From Verrucomicrobiota bacterium (lineage in GTDB: Bacteria > Verrucomicrobiota > Verrucomicrobiia > Opitutales > Opitutaceae), in the NCBI GenBank assembly GCA_016222805.1, contig JACRQG010000008.1:461253-525252 (forward strand): 64,000 bases of DNA. Direction: 5' to 3'. This document shows, in pieces, positions 4,026-61,383 of the stretch; within the stretch, counting starts at the first letter, position 1; every line of letters begins with the position of its first letter. The notes beneath the pieces were generated by a model that made no database searches, was not told where the DNA came from, and saw only the letters and a program-made list of their open reading frames with translations. The position numbers were made by a program, and so were the translations under genes.

Positions 4026-4790
4026 TCAGGTGATCGACTTCAACCGCTCCTGCAGTTCGCGCAGGCCGCGGGTGAGGAGGACGCGCGTGCCATCCTGCAA
4101 CACGATGGTGTGCTCGCCGGCCCCCGCGGCCTCCACCTCGCGGACGAGCGAGAGATTCACGATCGCGGATCGGCTGGCCCGGAAGAAACGCGCCGCATCG
4201 AGCTCCGCTTCCAGCGCACCGATCGCCCGGCGCAGGATGTGGTTTCCCGCCGCCGTGTGCAGGACGACGTAATTCGCCGCCGCCTCGACCCAGGTGATGT
4301 CGACCGCCCGGACCACGACGTACCGCTCGTGGGCTTTCACCAGGAACCGCTCCACCGGCGTCACCGCCACCGCCGGATCCGCCACCAGCGCGGACACCCG
4401 CGGATCCTCAGCCGGGGCCGCTGCGCCCCGCAGTTGCTGGCGCGCCCGTGCCACCGCCGCCTGGAGCCGCTCCGCGGAGTACGGTTTCAGCAGGTAGTCG
4501 AGCGCATGCAGCTCGAAGGCGGCGACGGCGTGCTCCGCAAACGCCGTGGTGAAGATTGTGCACGGCAGCCACTCGTCGCGCACCGCCCGCAGCACCGCCA
4601 GGCCGTTGGGCGCCGGCATCTGCACATCGAGAAACAGGAGGTCGGGCCGCTCCTCGCCAATCAGCCGGATGGCGTCGTCGCCATTGCCCGCCTCCGCGAC
4701 GATTTCGAGATCCTCCTCGGGCGCGAGCAACCGCCGCAGCCGGCTGCGGGCCGGGGCCTCATCATCAACGATCAGGGTGCGAATCTTCAT
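4026..4790 (-). CDS. LytTR-family response regulator
   Basis: 254 residues. The receiver domain covers residues 1-120, with acidic pocket D9/D10/E11, phospho-acceptor D55 in LLFLDVQMP, and K102 in LDYLLKPYS. The C-terminal ~105 residues form a LytTR DNA-binding domain (ERFLVKAHERYVVV, WVEAAANYVVLHT, FFRASRSAIVNL). Such regulators bind direct repeats upstream of target promoters. The ATG lies two bases after the stop of the sensor kinase gene, so the pair is certain to be cotranscribed. Being last in the efflux unit, it probably controls that unit or cell-envelope genes. The long open frame upstream of the ATG on this strand is a shadow of the kinase gene. Confidence 0.93.
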   Translation of the reverse strand: MKIRTLIVDDEAPARSRLRRLLAPEEDLEIVAEAGNGDDAIRLIGEERPDLLFLDVQMPAPNGLAVLRAVRDEWLPCTIFTTAFAEHAVAAFELHALDYLLKPYSAERLQAAVARARQQLRGAAAPAEDPRVSALVADPAVAVTPVERFLVKAHERYVVVRAVDITWVEAAANYVVLHTAAGNHILRRAIGALEAELDAARFFRASRSAIVNLSLVREVEAAGAGEHTIVLQDGTRVLLTRGLRELQERLKSIT

Positions 4791-4792
4791 GG

Positions 4793-6076
4793 TCAGGTCG
4801 CGACGCGCCGCGGAATTTCCAGCCGGACCGACACCCCGCCCTCGACGGCCCGCGCCACGCTGAAGCGGTGGCGATCGCCATACAGGGTCTCGAGCCGGGC
4901 CCGCGTGTTGCCCAGTCCCACACCCTCGCGGAACTGCAGGCCTGCACCGGCCGTGGTCGCCTCCGCATTGCCGGTGTCGGCCACCTCGAGTTGCAGCCTC
5001 TCCGCCGTGAGCCGCGCGCGGATCCAGACGCGGCCGGCGCCCCGGGCCGGCGCCACCCCATGGATCACGGCGTTCTCCACCAGCGGCTGGAGCAGGAGCG
5101 TGGGCACCGCGGCCGACCGCGCCGCGGGGTCGATCTCGTACTCGAAGCGCAGCCGGTCGGCAAAACGCACCTGCTGGATCGCGCAGTACTGCTCGATGAG
5201 CTGCAGCTCTTCGGCCAGCGGCACCTCGCGACGATGCTGTGCCGCCAGCGCCGCCCGGAGCAACCCGCCGAGGGCCGTGATGCTGGACTCTGCTGCGGGC
5301 GGGTTGTCGTAGATGAGCTGCGCGATGGTGTTGAGGGTATTGAAGAGAAAGTGCGGATTGAGCTGGGCCTGCAACGCCGCCAACCGCGCCTCCGCCAGCC
5401 GCGCTTCCGCCCGCAGGGCCCGAAGCTCCCGCTCCGCCACCCGGCGTTGCTGAGCCACGGCCGTCGCAGCGGCCACCAGCATCCAATAAACCGGCACGGC
5501 GATGCGCGCCCGGTCGAAGAACCGGAACGAGGCGGCCGGCGCCGGCGGCGGGCGACGGGGCTCGCGGCGCCCGCCCCCTTTGTCGAAACCCTCGGGCAGC
5601 GGTCGCCTTCCCTCCGGAGGCGGCATCAGCAACTCCTTGCGCAGCGACAACGCCGACATGGTCACCTCGATGGTCCCGACCATCAGGACACTCGCCACGA
5701 GGTGCGCCGGGAGGGCCCAGCGCCACGTTCCCGGACCGAGCGGCATCCGGCGCGCCAGCCAGAGAACCAGCGGGGTGAGGATGCACCACGGACCCCAATC
5801 CAGCAGCGAGAGACCAAACGCGGTGGTCCACGGCATCAGCCCCGCCGCGGAGATCTGCAGGGCAAAGACCGCGCTCACCACGAGCCAGAGCAGGCTGAAG
5901 CCCACCGGGAGCAGCACCTGCGATCCAGGGCGGGCGGTGGACGACGCGGCGTCGGAGTGGTTGGAAGCGTCAGTCGTCACGGGCGGTCTGAGACCCAAAC
6001 GCCACGACCGGGGAACCGCAAACCCGATACCGCGGGCAGGGAAGCTAACGGCGTCCGCCTGGCTCGCATGGCTCAT
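4793..6076 (-). CDS. LytS/YehU-type sensor histidine kinase
   Basis: 427 residues. Membrane segments lie at about 53-75, 84-107 and 121-142, and again near 192-208; between the last two is a Pro/Arg/Gly-rich loop (about 150-190). A coiled-coil linker rich in Ala/Glu/Arg (210-238) leads to the His_kinase domain with H242 in QLNPHFLFNTLN, followed by the ATP-binding N box around N335 (LVENAVIHG) and a GLGNTRARL G box. This is the histidine kinase architecture that pairs with LytTR regulators. The ATG overlaps the stop of the upstream permease gene (ATGA), which ties sensing to the MacB-like transporter. The signal sensed is unknown, but coupling to the efflux pump suggests envelope stress or a transported compound. 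Confidence 0.92.
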   Translation of the reverse strand: MSHASQADAVSFPARGIGFAVPRSWRLGLRPPVTTDASNHSDAASSTARPGSQVLLPVGFSLLWLVVSAVFALQISAAGLMPWTTAFGLSLLDWGPWCILTPLVLWLARRMPLGPGTWRWALPAHLVASVLMVGTIEVTMSALSLRKELLMPPPEGRRPLPEGFDKGGGRREPRRPPPAPAASFRFFDRARIAVPVYWMLVAAATAVAQQRRVAERELRALRAEARLAEARLAALQAQLNPHFLFNTLNTIAQLIYDNPPAAESSITALGGLLRAALAAQHRREVPLAEELQLIEQYCAIQQVRFADRLRFEYEIDPAARSAAVPTLLLQPLVENAVIHGVAPARGAGRVWIRARLTAERLQLEVADTGNAEATTAGAGLQFREGVGLGNTRARLETLYGDRHRFSVARAVEGGVSVRLEIPRRVAT

Positions 6077-7293
6077 TCGTACCTCAGGGCCTCGATGGGA
6101 TCGAGCTGCGCCGCTTTGCGCGCCGGGTAGTAACCGAAGAAGACCCCCACCGCGGCGCTGAAGAGGAAGGCTCCCCCGATGGCATAGCCGGGAGTGAGGG
6201 TCGGCCAGTTGAACTGCGCCGCCAGCCCGGCCGAAACCCCGACGCCGGTGGCGATGCCGATCAGCCCGCCGACCACGCTGAGCACCACCGCCTCGGTGAG
6301 AAACTGGCGGAGGATGTCCCGGCGGCGCGCGCCGACCGCGAGGCGAATGCCGATCTCGCGGGTGCGCTCCGTGACGGACACAAGCATGATGTTCATGATG
6401 CCGATGCCACCCACGAGGAGCGACACCCCGGCGATGGCGCCCAGCAGGCCCGTCATCGTCTTGGCGGTGGACGTCGCGAACTCGGTGATCTCCTGCTGCG
6501 TGCGCACCATGAAGTCGTCGTCCCTTCCCGGCTGGATCCGGTGGCGCTGCCGCAACAGGTCGGCGATCTGGGTGGAGACGTCCTTGATTTGTTCCGGCGA
6601 GGCGGCACTGACGTTGATCGAACGGAGGAAGTTCTGGCCGAAGAGCCGCCGCATGGCGGTCGAGTACGGCACGAAGACGACGTCATCCTGATCCTGGCCC
6701 ATCATGTTCGAACCCTTGGCCGCCAGGAGGCCAATCACGGTGAACGGAATGCCGCGGACGCGGATGGTGGCGCCGATCGGGTTGGCGTCCTCGAAGAGCT
6801 TCTTCGCCGTGGTCTGCCCGAGCACGGCGCTGCGGGTGGTGCCCCGGATATCCTGCTCGGTGAAGAAATCACCGTCCGCCAGCGGCCAGGCCCGCAGGTC
6901 GAGGTATTCCGGGCTGACCCCCATGACCGAGGTGTTCCAGTTCAGGTTGCCGGCGACGATCTGCACGTTGCCGCGCACCTCCGGGCTCATGTAGGCCACG
7001 CCGTCGACCTCGTGGCGCAGGGCCAGCGCGTCCTCGAGGGTGAGCGTCGGCGCGCCGCCCATGCCGGAGAACATGCCCCCGCGGCTCATGTTGCCCGCCA
7101 TGATCATAATCACGTTCTGGCCCAGCGCGGCGATTTGCTGCTCCACCTGCACGCGGGCGCCGGTGCCGATGCTCACCATCCCAATCACGGCGGCGACGCC
7201 GATGATGATGCCGAGCATGGTGAGGAAGGTGCGAAGGACGTTGCGGCGGAGGGCCCGCAGCGCGACACGCAGGATGGCCAGGAGGCGTTTCAT
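6073..7293 (-). CDS. MacB-type ABC transporter permease
   Basis: 406 residues with the MacB topology: one N-terminal membrane helix (about 22-43, MLGIIIGVAAVIGMVSIGTG), a ~230-residue periplasmic core domain (MacB_PCD), then three C-terminal helices near 282-305, 330-355 and 370-392. The conserved ...TREIGIRLAVGARRRDIL... segment sits between helices 2 and 3, as in FtsX/MacB permeases, and the C-terminus ends in the usual P.EALRYE. It acts as a mechanotransmitter rather than a true substrate channel in this family, working with a periplasmic adaptor and an outer-membrane duct. It overlaps both neighbours by ATGA-type junctions. No TolC gene is in this unit; the one at 60082-61383 belongs to another cluster but could serve. 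Confidence 0.93.
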   Translation of the reverse strand: MKRLLAILRVALRALRRNVLRTFLTMLGIIIGVAAVIGMVSIGTGARVQVEQQIAALGQNVIMIMAGNMSRGGMFSGMGGAPTLTLEDALALRHEVDGVAYMSPEVRGNVQIVAGNLNWNTSVMGVSPEYLDLRAWPLADGDFFTEQDIRGTTRSAVLGQTTAKKLFEDANPIGATIRVRGIPFTVIGLLAAKGSNMMGQDQDDVVFVPYSTAMRRLFGQNFLRSINVSAASPEQIKDVSTQIADLLRQRHRIQPGRDDDFMVRTQQEITEFATSTAKTMTGLLGAIAGVSLLVGGIGIMNIMLVSVTERTREIGIRLAVGARRRDILRQFLTEAVVLSVVGGLIGIATGVGVSAGLAAQFNWPTLTPGYAIGGAFLFSAAVGVFFGYYPARKAAQLDPIEALRYE

Positions 7294-8060
7294 GGGGCGA
7301 GATCGACGGCTTTTTCCTCGGCCTCGAGGCGGGCCACTTCGGGACCGGCGAACAGGCGGGCGGTCACCGGTTCGTCCCGCCGGATGCGGCCGTCGCGCAT
7401 CACAATCGTGCGGCGGGCAAACCGGGCGACGTCGAGCTCGTGCGTGACCATCACCACCGTCATCCCGCTGTCGTTGAGCCCCTGGAACACCCCCATGATC
7501 TCCATGCTCGTACGGGTGTCGAGGTTGCCCGTGGGTTCGTCGGCGAGGAGGAGCGAAGGGCCGAGCACGAGGGCGCGCGCGATGGCCACACGCTGCTGCT
7601 GCCCGCCCGACAACTGGCTGGGCACATGGTCACCGCGATCGCTGAGCCCGACCTGCGCCAGCGCGCGCTCCGCCCGGGCCCGCAGCTCCTCGCTGGCCAG
7701 CGGCGGATGTGAGTAGAGCATCGGCAGCTCGACGTTCTCGAGCGCCGTGGTGCGGGCGAGGAGGTTGAAGCCCTGGAAGACAAAGCCGATCTTGCGGTTG
7801 CGGATCGCCGCGAGCGCATCGGAGTCGAGCGAGGAGACATCGGTCCCATCGATCCGGTACGTGCCGCGGGTCGGACGATCGAGGCAGCCAAGCATGTTCA
7901 TCAGCGTCGACTTGCCCGATCCGCTCGCCCCCATGACCGCCACGAACTCGCCGGGCTGCACGCGCAGCGAGAGCCCGCGTACGGCGTGCACCGGAGTCGC
8001 CCCGGTTTGGTAGATCCGATGCAGATCGGCGATTTCGATAACGGGGGTCATGGCGGTCAC
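7290..8060 (-). CDS. MacB/LolD-type ABC transporter ATPase
   Basis: 256 residues. Walker A is GASGSGKST (44-52), the Q loop is in FVFQGFNLL, the signature is LSGGQQQR (150-157), Walker B is LLLADEPTG (170-178), and the switch His is H207 in VMVTHELD. The LNMLGCLDRPTRG-like segment after Walker A (MNMLGCLDRPTRG) is typical of the LolD/MacB/FtsE group that partners with FtsX-like permeases. I chose the GTG at 8060 because it forms a GTGA overlap with the adaptor stop; the ATG at 8051 is the alternative. It supplies ATP hydrolysis to the permease encoded next. Confidence 0.94.
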   Translation of the reverse strand: MTAMTPVIEIADLHRIYQTGATPVHAVRGLSLRVQPGEFVAVMGASGSGKSTLMNMLGCLDRPTRGTYRIDGTDVSSLDSDALAAIRNRKIGFVFQGFNLLARTTALENVELPMLYSHPPLASEELRARAERALAQVGLSDRGDHVPSQLSGGQQQRVAIARALVLGPSLLLADEPTGNLDTRTSMEIMGVFQGLNDSGMTVVMVTHELDVARFARRTIVMRDGRIRRDEPVTARLFAGPEVARLEAEEKAVDLAP

Positions 8061-9550
8061 TTCTTCGCGGCGCCAGGCGGCCGGGGCGGGCTGAAGAGGT
8101 TGTTGGTTCCGCTGGTCGAGGCCGCGGCCGCTTGCGCGGACACCGTCCCCGTGGCCACGATGGCGCCTTCGGCGAGGCCCGAGAGAATCTCCGTGTTGGC
8201 ACTGTCGCTCACTCCCAGGAAGACCCGGGTCGCCTGCAGGGTACCGGTGACGAGACCGGTGGCGTTGGGCTGGCCCGTGGGCACATACACCGTAACCGGC
8301 TGGGTGGCCGCCCCGCCACCGCCACTGCTGGCAGCCGTCCGCGGACCTCCGCCCTGCCCGCCCCCGCCGGCTCCTGGGCCGCGTCCGCCACCCCCGGGAG
8401 GCGGACCGCCCATGCCGCCGTCAGGCGGTCCGAAGCCACCGCCACCCCCGGCGCTCATCGCCGCCCGCCGGTTGCGCATCGTCGTCTCCATCGTCTTGCG
8501 CTCATCGGCGTCGAGCTTGCCGTCGCCGTTCTTGTCGAAGTCCGCGAGGAGCCGTTGCCGGATCTCCGCCGGCATCTTGTCAATGTCAGGCGCCCCGCCG
8601 CCGGCGTCCGCCGCAGGCAGCACCGTCGCGCCTTCCGGCGCCTTGAACCGCAGCGCAGCGTTCGGCACCCGCAGGACACCCGTCCGCCGCGCGGTCGCGA
8701 TCACGAGGTTGGCCGTCATCCCGGGACGCAGCTTCAGGTCGGCGTTCTCGACCGAGATGATCGTCGGGTAGGTCACGACGTTGTTCTGGATCGTTGAGTT
8801 GTTGCGGATCTGCCGGACCTTGCCCTGGAACGACCGGCCGGGGAACGCATCGACCGTAAACGTGACGGCCTGACCCGCCTCGACGCCCCCGATGTCGGCC
8901 TCGGAAACCGCCGCCTCGATCTCCATCTGCCGCAGGTCGCGCGCGATCGTGAAGAGGGTCGCGACGTTGTAGTTGGACTGCACCGTCTGCCCGACGGACA
9001 CCGCCCGCTTCAGCACGACGCCGTCGACCGGGGAGTAGATTTTGCAGCGCTCGAGGTCGGTGCGGGCGCTCTTGACCGCCGCCTCAGCCTTTTTCGCGGA
9101 GGCCTCCTGTTGCCGCAACGACACCGCCGCCTCGTCGTACTCCGACTGCGACACGAGCTTCTGCTCCAGGAGACCCTTCGCCCGCCGCACGGCGAGCTGC
9201 CGCAACTCGAGCGTGGCCTGCGCGGACAGCAGGTCGGCCTCCGCCTGAAACAGGCGCGCCTCGTAGGTCGTCGGCTCGATTTCCACGAGCAACTGGCCCT
9301 TCTTCACGACATCGTTGAAGTCGGCGTACAACGCGAGGATGTTGCCGGACACCTGGCTCCCGACGTCGACATTGGTCAGCGCCGCCAGGGTGCCGCTGCC
9401 GGTCACCGTCTGCGTCACGTCGCCGCGTTGCACGGTGGTCGTGCGAAATGTCGGCGCTGCGACGGCGTTTCCGCCGGAACGGCGCCACCACCCCACGGCC
9501 GCGACCGCGATCACCGCCAACACGATCCAGGAGAGAAGGCGCGTGATCAT
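8057..9550 (-). CDS. MacA/HlyD-family periplasmic adaptor with inserted EF-hand
   Basis: 497 residues from the ATG at 9550. One membrane anchor (7-21) precedes the adaptor: TVQRGDVTQTVTGSGTL, a lipoyl half-motif (VGSQVSGNILALYADFNDVVKKGQLL), an alpha-helical hairpin (about 95-170), the second lipoyl half (CKIYSPVDGVVLKR), and beta-barrel/membrane-proximal domains. Between the barrel and the C-terminal domain (about 315-420) there is an insertion not found in standard MacA. It contains a perfect EF-hand loop (D339-x-N341-x-D343-G-x-L-x-x-x-E350) flanked by helices, then a Gly/Pro-rich low-complexity stretch. It heads the five-gene minus-strand unit and would link the MacB-like permease to an outer-membrane channel. 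The start has no strong ribosome-binding site. Confidence 0.9.
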   Translation of the reverse strand: MITRLLSWIVLAVIAVAAVGWWRRSGGNAVAAPTFRTTTVQRGDVTQTVTGSGTLAALTNVDVGSQVSGNILALYADFNDVVKKGQLLVEIEPTTYEARLFQAEADLLSAQATLELRQLAVRRAKGLLEQKLVSQSEYDEAAVSLRQQEASAKKAEAAVKSARTDLERCKIYSPVDGVVLKRAVSVGQTVQSNYNVATLFTIARDLRQMEIEAAVSEADIGGVEAGQAVTFTVDAFPGRSFQGKVRQIRNNSTIQNNVVTYPTIISVENADLKLRPGMTANLVIATARRTGVLRVPNAALRFKAPEGATVLPAADAGGGAPDIDKMPAEIRQRLLADFDKNGDGKLDADERKTMETTMRNRRAAMSAGGGGGFGPPDGGMGGPPPGGGGRGPGAGGGGQGGGPRTAASSGGGGAATQPVTVYVPTGQPNATGLVTGTLQATRVFLGVSDSANTEILSGLAEGAIVATGTVSAQAAAASTSGTNNLFSPPRPPGAAKK

Positions 9551-9849
9551 GGGAAGAGGGGCTTGGGCTCCGGCGTCACCGTCCGCACGGGGGAATTCGG
9601 TTTCATGACGCCAGGGTGGTCCCGGTCCTCCGTTCCGACGACACCTCTGCCACCAACCGGCCGGCAAATGGTACGAACCGGTCCAAAGTCCGGACGGACC
9701 GCGCCGCGCTCCGGTCGCAGCGACGCGCCGCCGTGCTTCCGCCGCCGGAGCATCGTCTGCCGCGCACTCCCTCCCGCGTGCCCGGAGGCTCGACCTGGCG
9801 CCGACTGGACGCGATGCTCCCCGGTGAAGGCCCAACCCCGTTTCGCTCC

Positions 9850-11211
9850 ATGAAATCCCGCCTGCTTCTCTCCGTCCTGGTGTTCGCCCTCGCCGGCCCC
9901 GTGATCGCCGCCGAGCTGCCCTGGAAAATCGGCCTCGCCGCGGTGAAGATCACGCCGGAACAACCCGTGCTCATGTATGGCTACGCGAGCCGCATCGAGC
10001 CGCACCAAGGGGTCGCGAGCGACCTGTTCGCCAAGGCCCTGGCGCTCGAAGACGGCCAGGGGGCCAAGGCGGTGCTGGTCACGTGCGACCTGGGAGGCGT
10101 CCACGGCGCGATGATCGATCGCCTCGCCACCCGCCTGCGGGAAAGGCACGGGCTGCCGCGGGCCGCCGTGATCTACAACGCCTCCCACACCCACGCCGGG
10201 CCGCAGGCCTGGCTCTCGCGCGACGAGATCGAGGGCGTCAGTCCGGCGACCCTCCAGCAAACGCGCGCCTACATCGCGGAGCTGGAACGGAAGCTGGAGC
10301 GTGTGGCGCTCGATGCCCTCGACCGCCTCGAGCCGGCTGCACTCTCGTGGGGCCTGGGCATGGCGCCGTTTGTGATGAACCGCCGCGAGTTCACCGATCG
10401 CGGCATCGTCCTCGGCTTCAATCCCAAGGGCCCGGTCGACCGCAGCGTGCTCGTGCTGCGCGCCCACAACGCCCAGGGGCATCTCCGCGCCGTCCTGATG
10501 GGAGTCGCGTGTCATTGCACCTGCTCCGGCCCGAAGAACCAGCAGATTGACGGCGACTATGCCGGCCACGCCCAGCGGCTGGTGGAGGAGCAGTTCCCCG
10601 GCGTGCAGGCGATGTTCCTCACCGGCTGCGGCGGCGACGCCAATCCCTGGCCGCGCGGAGAACTCATCCATGCCCGGCAACACGGCGCCACCCTCGCGGC
10701 CGAAGTGGCCCGAGTGCTGGCGGAAAAACCCGCGCCCCTGCGGCCCCCGCTGCGGATGGCCTTCGCTCCGGCGGCGCTCCCCATCACCCCGCCGGAGTCG
10801 CGCGAGAAGCTGGAGGCCATGGCCAAGTCCTCCTCGAGCTGGCTGAAGTACATCGGCACCCGGCAGCTCGCGCTGCTGAACAAGGGCCAGGCCCCGGCGG
10901 CGAGCTACCCGATGCCGATTTCCCTCTGGCATTTTGGCTCCGACCTCGCGCTCGTCGGCCTGAGCGGCGAACCCGTCAACGACTACGTGCACCTCATCGA
11001 GAACGCGCTCGGCCCAACGCGCCTTTGGGTCGCGGGGTACTGCCACGACGTCTTCGGGTATGTGCCCAGTGCCCGGGTGCTGGCCGAGGGTGGCTACGAG
11101 ACGCGCGGCATCGACCGCGGCGATGCCGTCGGGCAGTTCACTCCGGCCGCCCAGGAGGCGGTGGTCGGCGTGGTGACCGCCCTGGCCCGCGAAACCGGAC
11201 GGCTGAAGTAG
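9850..11211 (+). CDS. Neutral/alkaline ceramidase-like secreted hydrolase
   Basis: 453 residues from the ATG at 9850, the first start giving a signal peptide (MKSRLLLSVLVFALAGPVIAA). The mature N-terminus (IGLAAVKITPEQPVLMYGYASR) and the NASHTHAGP motif with H113/H115 match the N-terminal catalytic domain of neutral/alkaline non-lysosomal ceramidases, which use a zinc ion to cleave N-acyl amides. GCGGDANPWPRG provides a later conserved segment of the family. At ~450 residues it is shorter than the ~650-residue Pseudomonas ceramidase and lacks the C-terminal Ig-like domain, as many Verrucomicrobia/Planctomycetes homologues do, so true ceramide hydrolysis is not assured. It is divergent from the adaptor gene, with 299 bases between. 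Confidence 0.82.
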   Translation: MKSRLLLSVLVFALAGPVIAAELPWKIGLAAVKITPEQPVLMYGYASRIEPHQGVASDLFAKALALEDGQGAKAVLVTCDLGGVHGAMIDRLATRLRERHGLPRAAVIYNASHTHAGPQAWLSRDEIEGVSPATLQQTRAYIAELERKLERVALDALDRLEPAALSWGLGMAPFVMNRREFTDRGIVLGFNPKGPVDRSVLVLRAHNAQGHLRAVLMGVACHCTCSGPKNQQIDGDYAGHAQRLVEEQFPGVQAMFLTGCGGDANPWPRGELIHARQHGATLAAEVARVLAEKPAPLRPPLRMAFAPAALPITPPESREKLEAMAKSSSSWLKYIGTRQLALLNKGQAPAASYPMPISLWHFGSDLALVGLSGEPVNDYVHLIENALGPTRLWVAGYCHDVFGYVPSARVLAEGGYETRGIDRGDAVGQFTPAAQEAVVGVVTALARETGRLK

Positions 11212-60081: not shown

Positions 60082-61383
60082 TCAACGTTCGGCCCCCACG
60101 GCCCGTTCCAGCGAGGCGCGGGCCGCCAGGTAGCCCCATCGCGCCTCGGCCAGCGCCGCCTCGGCGCGGGCGAGCGTTGTCTGGGTTTCGAGCAAGTCGG
60201 TGATCACGGCCGCCCCCCGCTCGTAACGCTCGCGAGTGACGCGGAGTCCTTCCTCGCCGGCCCGCACGCCGGCCGTGCTCGCGCCAATCGAAGCCCAGGT
60301 GCGGTCCACTTCGGTGGCCGCGGACCAGACCTCGTCCCGCACCTGCAACCGGCGGCCTTCCAGCAACGCTTCCTCCCGGGCCAAATCGGCCCGCGTGCGG
60401 GCGGCCCGCCGCGTGCGGCTGCCGGCGTCGAAGACCGGAATCTCCAGGGACAGTCCGGCCTGCCAGTCACGCGTATCCGGCAGTAGCACGGTGTCGCGCC
60501 AACCGAAGGCCGCATCGGCCCGGATTCGCGGCGCGCGGGCGGCCCGGGCGGCGGCGACCGCGGCCCGGGCGGCGTCCGCCCGGCGCTCGCCCGCCGCCAG
60601 CTCCGGCCTTTGCGCGAGGGCACGTTGCAGCAAGGCGGCAACGTCCCCGCTGGCCGGCGGAGTCAGCGGCTCACGGGACGGGGCGATTTCCAGGGGAGTC
60701 TCCGCCGGTCGACCCATGGCAGTGTTCAATCGACCCCGGGCGAGGCGCACCCGACTCTCGGCACTGATGACCTGCAGGCGAGCGGACGCGACTTCCGCTT
60801 CCAGGCGGATCACGTCGGCGCGGGGCACGGCCCCGGCGGCCTGGCGGGCGGCAGCCAGGCGCTGGTGGGCCTCCGCCCGAGAGAGATTCTGGTCGGCCGC
60901 GGCCCGCACGTCAGAGGCGGCGGCCAGCGTGTAGAAGGCGACGCGCACGGCATGGCGAAGATCGGTGGCTGTCGCGGTCGAATCAGCTTCGGCGGCCCCA
61001 CGCCGGGCTTGGGCGGCCTCGATGGCAGCCCGGCGTTCGCCCGCATCATAGAGCAGCACGCGGGAGGTGAGCCCTCCGTTCCAATCATCCAACGGACCGA
61101 CCACCTCGGGCAGGGAGCGTCCGGGCAGGCTGAGACCGGCGGGAAGAAATGCCCGGTGTTGCCACCGATGGTAGCCGGCAGCGACATCCACTTGGGGATA
61201 CAGCGGAGCACGAGACTCCGCCACCGCCTCCTGGGCCGCTGTGACGCCGGCGCGCGCGGCAACCAGGGCCGGATGCCGGGAAGCGCTGAGTTGCAGACAG
61301 TCGTCCAGGGAGAGTGGGCTGGCGGTCTGTGCCGCCAGCGGGCCGGCAACGACAGTGGCGAGAGACAGGACCAGACGTTTCAT
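60082..61383 (-). CDS. TolC-family outer-membrane efflux protein
   Basis: 433 residues with a signal peptide (about 1-18). Two Ala/Arg-rich coiled-coil outer-membrane-efflux repeats are visible: LTLDDCL-like start (SPLSLDDCLQLSASRHPALVAAR), DWNGGLTSRVLLYDAGERRAAI, then RPELAAGERRADAARAAVAAARA and DWQAGLSLEIPVFDAGSRTR. TolC proteins form a trimeric tunnel across the outer membrane and periplasm. It lies downstream of two ABC-2 permeases on the same strand, with 94 bases before it, so it is probably their outlet. It may also serve the MacB-type pump at 6-9.5 kb. Confidence 0.93.
   Translation of the reverse strand: MKRLVLSLATVVAGPLAAQTASPLSLDDCLQLSASRHPALVAARAGVTAAQEAVAESRAPLYPQVDVAAGYHRWQHRAFLPAGLSLPGRSLPEVVGPLDDWNGGLTSRVLLYDAGERRAAIEAAQARRGAAEADSTATATDLRHAVRVAFYTLAAASDVRAAADQNLSRAEAHQRLAAARQAAGAVPRADVIRLEAEVASARLQVISAESRVRLARGRLNTAMGRPAETPLEIAPSREPLTPPASGDVAALLQRALAQRPELAAGERRADAARAAVAAARAARAPRIRADAAFGWRDTVLLPDTRDWQAGLSLEIPVFDAGSRTRRAARTRADLAREEALLEGRRLQVRDEVWSAATEVDRTWASIGASTAGVRAGEEGLRVTRERYERGAAVITDLLETQTTLARAEAALAEARWGYLAARASLERAVGAER

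Follow-up and report, generated by a model that had tools for sequence, protein, structure and literature searches.

In the tripartite pump MacAB-TolC of E. coli, the periplasmic adaptor MacA is a hexamer, and three of its protomers touch one periplasmic domain of MacB through their β-barrel and membrane-proximal domains, according to a review (PMC10094684). The adaptors CusB, ZneB and AcrA are metal-responsive; the responses named in the accessible text of a second review are to Ag+/Cu+, to Zn2+ (in a reference title) and to Mg2+ together with pH, and neither calcium nor an EF-hand is mentioned in that text (PMC13328181). Here we describe a MacA-type adaptor that contains an EF-hand loop, and whose response to a metal is putative. 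It is encoded in a stretch of 64,000 nucleotides from a Verrucomicrobiota bacterium of the family Opitutaceae (assembly GCA_016222805.1, contig JACRQG010000008.1, positions 461,253 to 525,252), which as a whole is called the window below.

With E. coli MacA (Protein Data Bank, PDB, 5nik, 9qgy and 3fpp) this adaptor shares its fold and the presence of MacB-type ATPase and permease genes next to its own. It differs by an insertion of about 90 residues with the EF-hand, and by its partner, since MacB is one chain of 648 positions in the NCBIfam model whereas ATPase and permease are two genes here. A comparable insertion is described in the periplasmic lytic transglycosylases Slt35 and SltB1-3, where an EF-hand-like Ca2+-binding motif lies in a loop of the protein; there the host is an enzyme, and the loop of SltB2 is 17 residues long (PMC12547810), as opposed to the pump adaptor and its canonical loop of 12 residues here. 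The open-licence literature searched yielded no account of an adaptor (membrane fusion protein, MacA/MacB or HlyD) with an EF-hand, and the term EF-hand is absent from the available parts of the reviews PMC10094684 and PMC13328181, and from the first 300,000 of the 747,799 characters of PMC8277102.

A canonical EF-hand loop in a tethered insertion

The loop, DKNGDGKLDADE (residues 339-350, positions 8501 to 8536, minus strand), has the canonical 12 residues, with ligands at positions 1, 3, 5 and 12, Gly at position 6 and a hydrophobic residue at position 8. Residues and coordinates were recovered exactly as in the original prediction, which had been made from the letters of the DNA. This is the sole match to an EF-type pattern in the 81,027 residues encoded by the open reading frames (ORFs) of at least 100 amino acids in the six frames of the window, and the adaptor chain holds one such loop only. 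Shuffling produced an EF-type loop 69 times in 200,000 for the 111-residue insert, and 60 times in 50,000 for the whole protein. Chance as the source of the loop is ruled out by these counts, together with the conservation and the predicted fold presented below. Because all side-chain ligand positions are present, we infer with good confidence that the module binds Ca2+ in the periplasm.

That the site should hold a metal other than Ca2+, for instance a lanthanide, has a next to negligible probability. Position 9 of the loop is an Asp, as it is in lanmodulin loops, and EF-hand loops bind lanthanides in general. However, lanmodulin loops have Pro at position 2, and its absence from the adaptor loop speaks against a lanthanide. 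A lanthanide system was also set aside because no protein of the source genome reaches the TIGR03075 cut-off for a pyrroloquinoline quinone (PQQ) alcohol dehydrogenase (best score 175.9 against 480.05 bits); the argument is weak, since the 14 control genomes all stayed below it too.

The adaptor gene runs on the minus strand from an ATG at 9550 to a stop at 8057 and encodes 497 residues. The protein passes the NCBIfam model TIGR01730 (RND_mfp; 179.9 bits for a cut-off of 94.9) and also matches HlyD_D23 and HlyD_3. It does not reach the cut-off of the MacA equivalog NF008606 (159.9 against 342 bits), and is therefore MacA-like rather than classed as MacA itself. A predicted N-terminal helix, residues 3-25, resembles a transmembrane anchor. 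The AlphaFold model of the full adaptor, built on a 40-sequence alignment, has a mean predicted local distance difference test score (pLDDT) of 84.6 and a predicted template modelling score (pTM) of 0.62, and its best Foldseek matches are the MacA chains 9qgy_G (E 7.3e-25) and 5nik_D.

Between residues 303 and 417 the adaptor has 115 residues, for a median of 25.5 in 40 adaptors (range 10-117), which corresponds to an insertion of about 90 residues. In the model it connects the membrane-proximal domain, at its C-terminal strands, with the β-barrel, and its place in the chain is thus the one originally proposed. The helix-forming flanks and the Gly/Pro-rich linker that had been read from the sequence were borne out as well. 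The helix-loop-helix module comprises residues 328-368 (8447 to 8569, minus strand), with helices predicted at 328-338 and 348-368 and a pLDDT of 68-86 over the block. It is followed by a tether, residues 369-416 (8303 to 8446, minus strand), of which 69% are Gly or Pro; this tether is predicted to be mostly disordered, pLDDT being mostly below 50 for residues 370-412. When the module was modelled alone, from three sequences, matching helices were obtained with a mean pLDDT of 82.4, and nearly all the structural neighbours listed for it were named EF-hand proteins, among them S100B, calmodulin and ALG-2.

Conservation of the loop and history of the insertion site

Full-length orthologues were detected in 4 of 252 genomes of the family, namely the source genome, G006 (same genus, 74% identical), and G023 and G009 (other genera, 68-69% identical). 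The loop is intact in the three close orthologues. A sample of 387 genomes of the phylum added one EF-bearing adaptor among the best 20 of 33 rows, in G446, a member of another class (51% identical); of the 288 genomes of that class 26 matched, and among the 26 loci, all of them read, the loop was found in G446 alone. The loop reads DKNGDGKLDADE in the source genome and G023, DKNGDGRLDADE in G006, DANGDGKLDDDE in G009 and DRNGDGQLDDAE in G446, and ligand positions 1, 3, 5 and 12, Gly6, Leu8 and Asp9 are invariant across the five adaptors. Two outcomes which the original prediction had named as damaging to it, a loop lost or degenerate in close homologues and a disordered segment with no helix-loop-helix, were therefore not seen. 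The tethered insertion of this MacA-type adaptor contains a predicted helix-loop-helix module with a conserved canonical loop.

The module is better preserved than the tether that follows it. Among the four close orthologues (6 pairs), identity was 75-100% in the EF loop and 62-76% in the module, and 39-58% in the Gly linker; it was 75-84% in the core, 56-72% in the membrane-proximal domain and 42-61% in the short first linker. Nonsynonymous divergence (pN) in the same pairs was 0.145-0.275 for the module versus 0.307-0.535 for the Gly linker.

Adaptors with the loop are rare, as the original prediction had supposed. It is carried by 5 of the 149 distinct cores read, and the other 144 show none, four loci (L073, L112, L192 and L195) being cut at the insertion site because their frame ends less than 60 residues past the core. 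The 149 cores stem from 172 loci, all with a core, which are search returns taken best first and not every adaptor of each genome: the loci read were 30 (154 family genomes matched), 20 of 28, 20 of 33, 26 of 26, and the best 80 of 361 stretches. Degenerate EF-hands in the other adaptors were ruled out by a profile of the module, which with all filters off detected no remnant in the 172 loci (E 1.5 for the best row lacking an EF-hand), of which the four cut ones are too short to judge. Nor does the count, 5 of 149 distinct cores, support an EF-hand ancestral to the MacA-type proteins as a whole. By its sequence, the motif is a real and conserved one of calcium-binding type, rare among adaptors and of a kind that is common in the source family.

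Trees were built on the core, leaving out the insert, first from 86 of the 149 (with most of the Bacteroidales rows omitted) and then from 73, once 13 rows that were long or odd had been removed. A single subclade, with support 100/97, unites the five EF adaptors with two that lack the EF-hand, L012 and L153 (L153 and L023 are one gene). Presence of the EF-hand requires 2 changes on this tree. The five EF adaptors formed a single clade in 0 of 200 bootstrap trees, and the approximately unbiased (AU) test gave p 0.162, hence no rejection of such a clade. The module may have been gained once, with later losses, or twice. L012 and L023 still have adjoining MacB-type genes.

The loop between the barrel and the membrane-proximal domain is a hypervariable insertion point, occupied by unrelated modules in different adaptors. 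The paralogue L002 of the source genome belongs to the same adaptor family and has at this site an unrelated, Gly-rich insert. L002 and the adaptors of 150 other family genomes (200 searched) are 39-58% identical to the adaptor and differ from it by an insert with no EF-hand; in the 25 that were read (L002, L013-L022, L024-L037) a long EF-less insert, mostly helical-looking, occupies the site. With a hypervariable site and an unrelated insert in the paralogue, the EF-hand looks like a module captured by an insertion-tolerant loop. The insert that recurs in these 25 relatives, for example TPEQRQKMREIMxEIGF..GPPSPEQREQMRKLMxERG, constitutes a second kind of module.

The same observations feed a serious rival explanation, that of a neutral or purely local passenger: an EF-hand repeat unit would have landed in a tolerant loop, where it binds Ca2+ to fold itself and leaves the pump unaffected. 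It has to be taken seriously because two members of the subclade lack the module and the site accepts unrelated inserts, in L002 among others, and the presence of similar modules in unrelated envelope proteins points the same way. Against it, the loop has stayed canonical across orthologues 68-74% identical, from three genera, and in the adaptor of G446 (51% identical, another class), whereas the Gly linker has diverged. On balance we regard a passenger as unlikely. The reading that we prefer, held with middling confidence, is that a single EF-hand module was captured by the hypervariable loop of a subfamily of MacA-type adaptors and has a structural or assembly role there.

Related modules in the source family

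A profile made from the five modules gave matches at E ≤0.001 in 105 of 150 family genomes. Of thirty loci from this search, 4 are the adaptors, and the 26 non-adaptor loci were read. In 22 of these 26 the product is a small protein containing between one and five EF-type loops that share a consensus; three others are PQQ-type propellers, and the last is a TonB-dependent receptor whose module is close to the N terminus. Pfam supports the assignment of the receptor, of two of the three propellers and of one small protein. The profile found L215, a protein with three EF-hands, at E 1.4e-12, and L215 passes the Pfam cut-off (EF-hand_5, 50.5 bits), so that the adaptor module is tied to accepted EF-hands via its relatives. 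The modules of L215 and its like are very similar to that of the adaptor; in those proteins they account for almost the entire mature chain, as against one module within a pump part here.

The abundance of these small proteins lends some colour to another role, namely that the EF-hand is a docking site for a further envelope protein (a small multi-EF-hand protein of the same genome, for example) or for a secreted substrate. In PMC12547810, the EF-hand of the lytic transglycosylase SltB1 is proposed, from a model, to contact PBP2. No second EF-type loop occurs among the window's ORFs of at least 100 amino acids, which counts against docking, and we consider it very unlikely.

Many of the small EF-hand proteins, which are frequent in the family (L215, L216 and L221 are examples), have an apparent signal peptide, and their consensus is approximately FDxNGDGxLDxxERAAMR. 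In the PQQ-type propellers L218, L224 and L231 (from G137, G048 and G101, one genus), the module lies beside Gly/Arg-rich stretches, as in the adaptor; L218 and L224 have a PQQ_2 match in Pfam, and L231 was assigned by sequence alone. TonB-dependent receptors with a single N-terminal EF-type loop before the plug were seen in the source genome (L047, L049, L053 and L063) and in G013 (L222). The plug domain is recognised by Pfam in these five; L054 of the source genome was assigned by sequence alone. The loop of the receptors is possibly a Ca2+-binding extension of outer-membrane receptors.

Calcium, the pump and the neighbouring genes

With an EF-hand in its barrel-to-membrane-proximal loop, an adaptor could let periplasmic Ca2+ act directly as an input to a tripartite pump. 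Because the domains of the MacA hexamer touch the periplasmic domain of MacB, six tethered EF-hands per pump would be expected near MacB. Ca2+ would fold these modules, which once bound would probably pair between protomers; the pairing of single EF-hands has a precedent in 1cta, a synthetic two-site homodimer found among the structural neighbours of the isolated module. Pairing would then make the adaptor ring stiffer or more stable. Such a role, in structure or assembly, would operate at Ca2+ concentrations that are normal outside the inner membrane, and would not be that of an on/off gate. We propose this role by pairing in the hexamer with less confidence than the binding of Ca2+.

Several points weigh against a structural or assembly role, or against the module as such. 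The absence of the EF-hand from L012 and L023, beside their MacB-type genes, means that it is dispensable for such a pump, and a disordered tether of about 43 residues, as the model predicts, would let the module float free of it. Pfam EF-hand matches are under the curated cut-off in all five adaptors: EF-hand_5 scored 17.1 bits (E 0.0038) for a cut-off of 25.9 in the adaptor, 16.5, 19.6 and 14.7 bits in the three orthologues, and the fifth adaptor, L164, matched no EF-hand family at E 0.1 and gave one match only at E up to 1. The best structural neighbour of the isolated module, S100B, has a Z of 4.8 (rmsd, the root-mean-square deviation, 2.3 over 49 residues), and the comparison tool warns that a Z below 8 may reflect merely a common arrangement. 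The best Foldseek E-value, 0.76, is not significant, as we would expect for a chain of 51 residues. Position 13 of the loop is hydrophobic in many EF-hands, and the exit helix of the adaptor has an Arg there. Finally, the first linker (residues 306-325; pN 0.221-0.391) diverges little more than the module.

The other reading in which the pump itself is affected is a calcium switch, with periplasmic Ca2+ gating either the assembly of MacA, MacB and the outer-membrane factor (OMF) or the ATPase activity of MacB. By itself, one EF-hand seldom makes a steep switch, and the module hangs on a predicted disordered tether, both of which count against a switch. The original prediction had added the sensor kinase of the same unit as a second input, a suggestion that now appears weak. 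Of the 4 close orthologue loci, 2 have genes for a LytS-type kinase and a LytTR regulator downstream of macB: the source locus and L068 of G009, in the latter after the permease gene. Neither was detected by tblastn in the 13-15 kb around L069 (G023), L203 (G006) and L204 (the distant G446). Present in two loci out of four, the kinase is no fixed component of the pump unit, a further argument against the switch. A gate is made conceivable by the metal responses of other adaptors, to Ag+/Cu+ in CusB and to pH and Mg2+ in AcrA (PMC13328181); we nonetheless judge it improbable. A wider and distinctly doubtful proposal is that the family uses the single, flexibly flanked EF-hand module as a portable Ca2+ cassette, placed in loops or at the ends of unrelated envelope proteins (adaptors, TonB-dependent receptors and PQQ-type propellers), and that Ca2+-driven pairing of six such modules in the MacA-type adaptor tunes assembly, which would make the pump calcium-responsive.

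The genes following the adaptor on the minus strand encode, in order, the MacB-type ATP-binding cassette (ABC) ATPase (7290 to 8051; ABC_tran, 121.1 bits), the MacB-type permease (6073 to 7293; MacB_PCD and FtsX), the LytS-type histidine kinase (PF06580; 4793 to 6076, overlapping the permease gene and missing from some orthologous loci) and the response regulator (4026 to 4790), with a LytTR DNA-binding domain. Homologues of the ATPase and permease genes adjoin the adaptor gene in the three other close orthologue loci and in G446. Candidate outer-membrane factors for the pump are available: matches to OEP (PF02321) above cut-off number 29 in the source genome, none of them beside the adaptor gene; in G446, an OEP gene (134.1 bits) lies immediately upstream of it. 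An outer-membrane efflux protein gene is found in the window at about 60094-61308 on the minus strand (G000:C51:521346-522560), some 51 kb from the adaptor gene, with two PF02321 matches of 100.2 and 93.1 bits. Just upstream of the adaptor gene, and divergent from it, is a neutral ceramidase-like gene (9616-11211, plus strand; PF04734, 49.7 bits). At 853-1473, on the minus strand, a protein was noted in which a helical-looking unit is repeated twice (LTPAEAARLEAREAELRKQIAxDRxANGGxLTAxQR), and whose only Pfam match, SHOCT-like, is below threshold.
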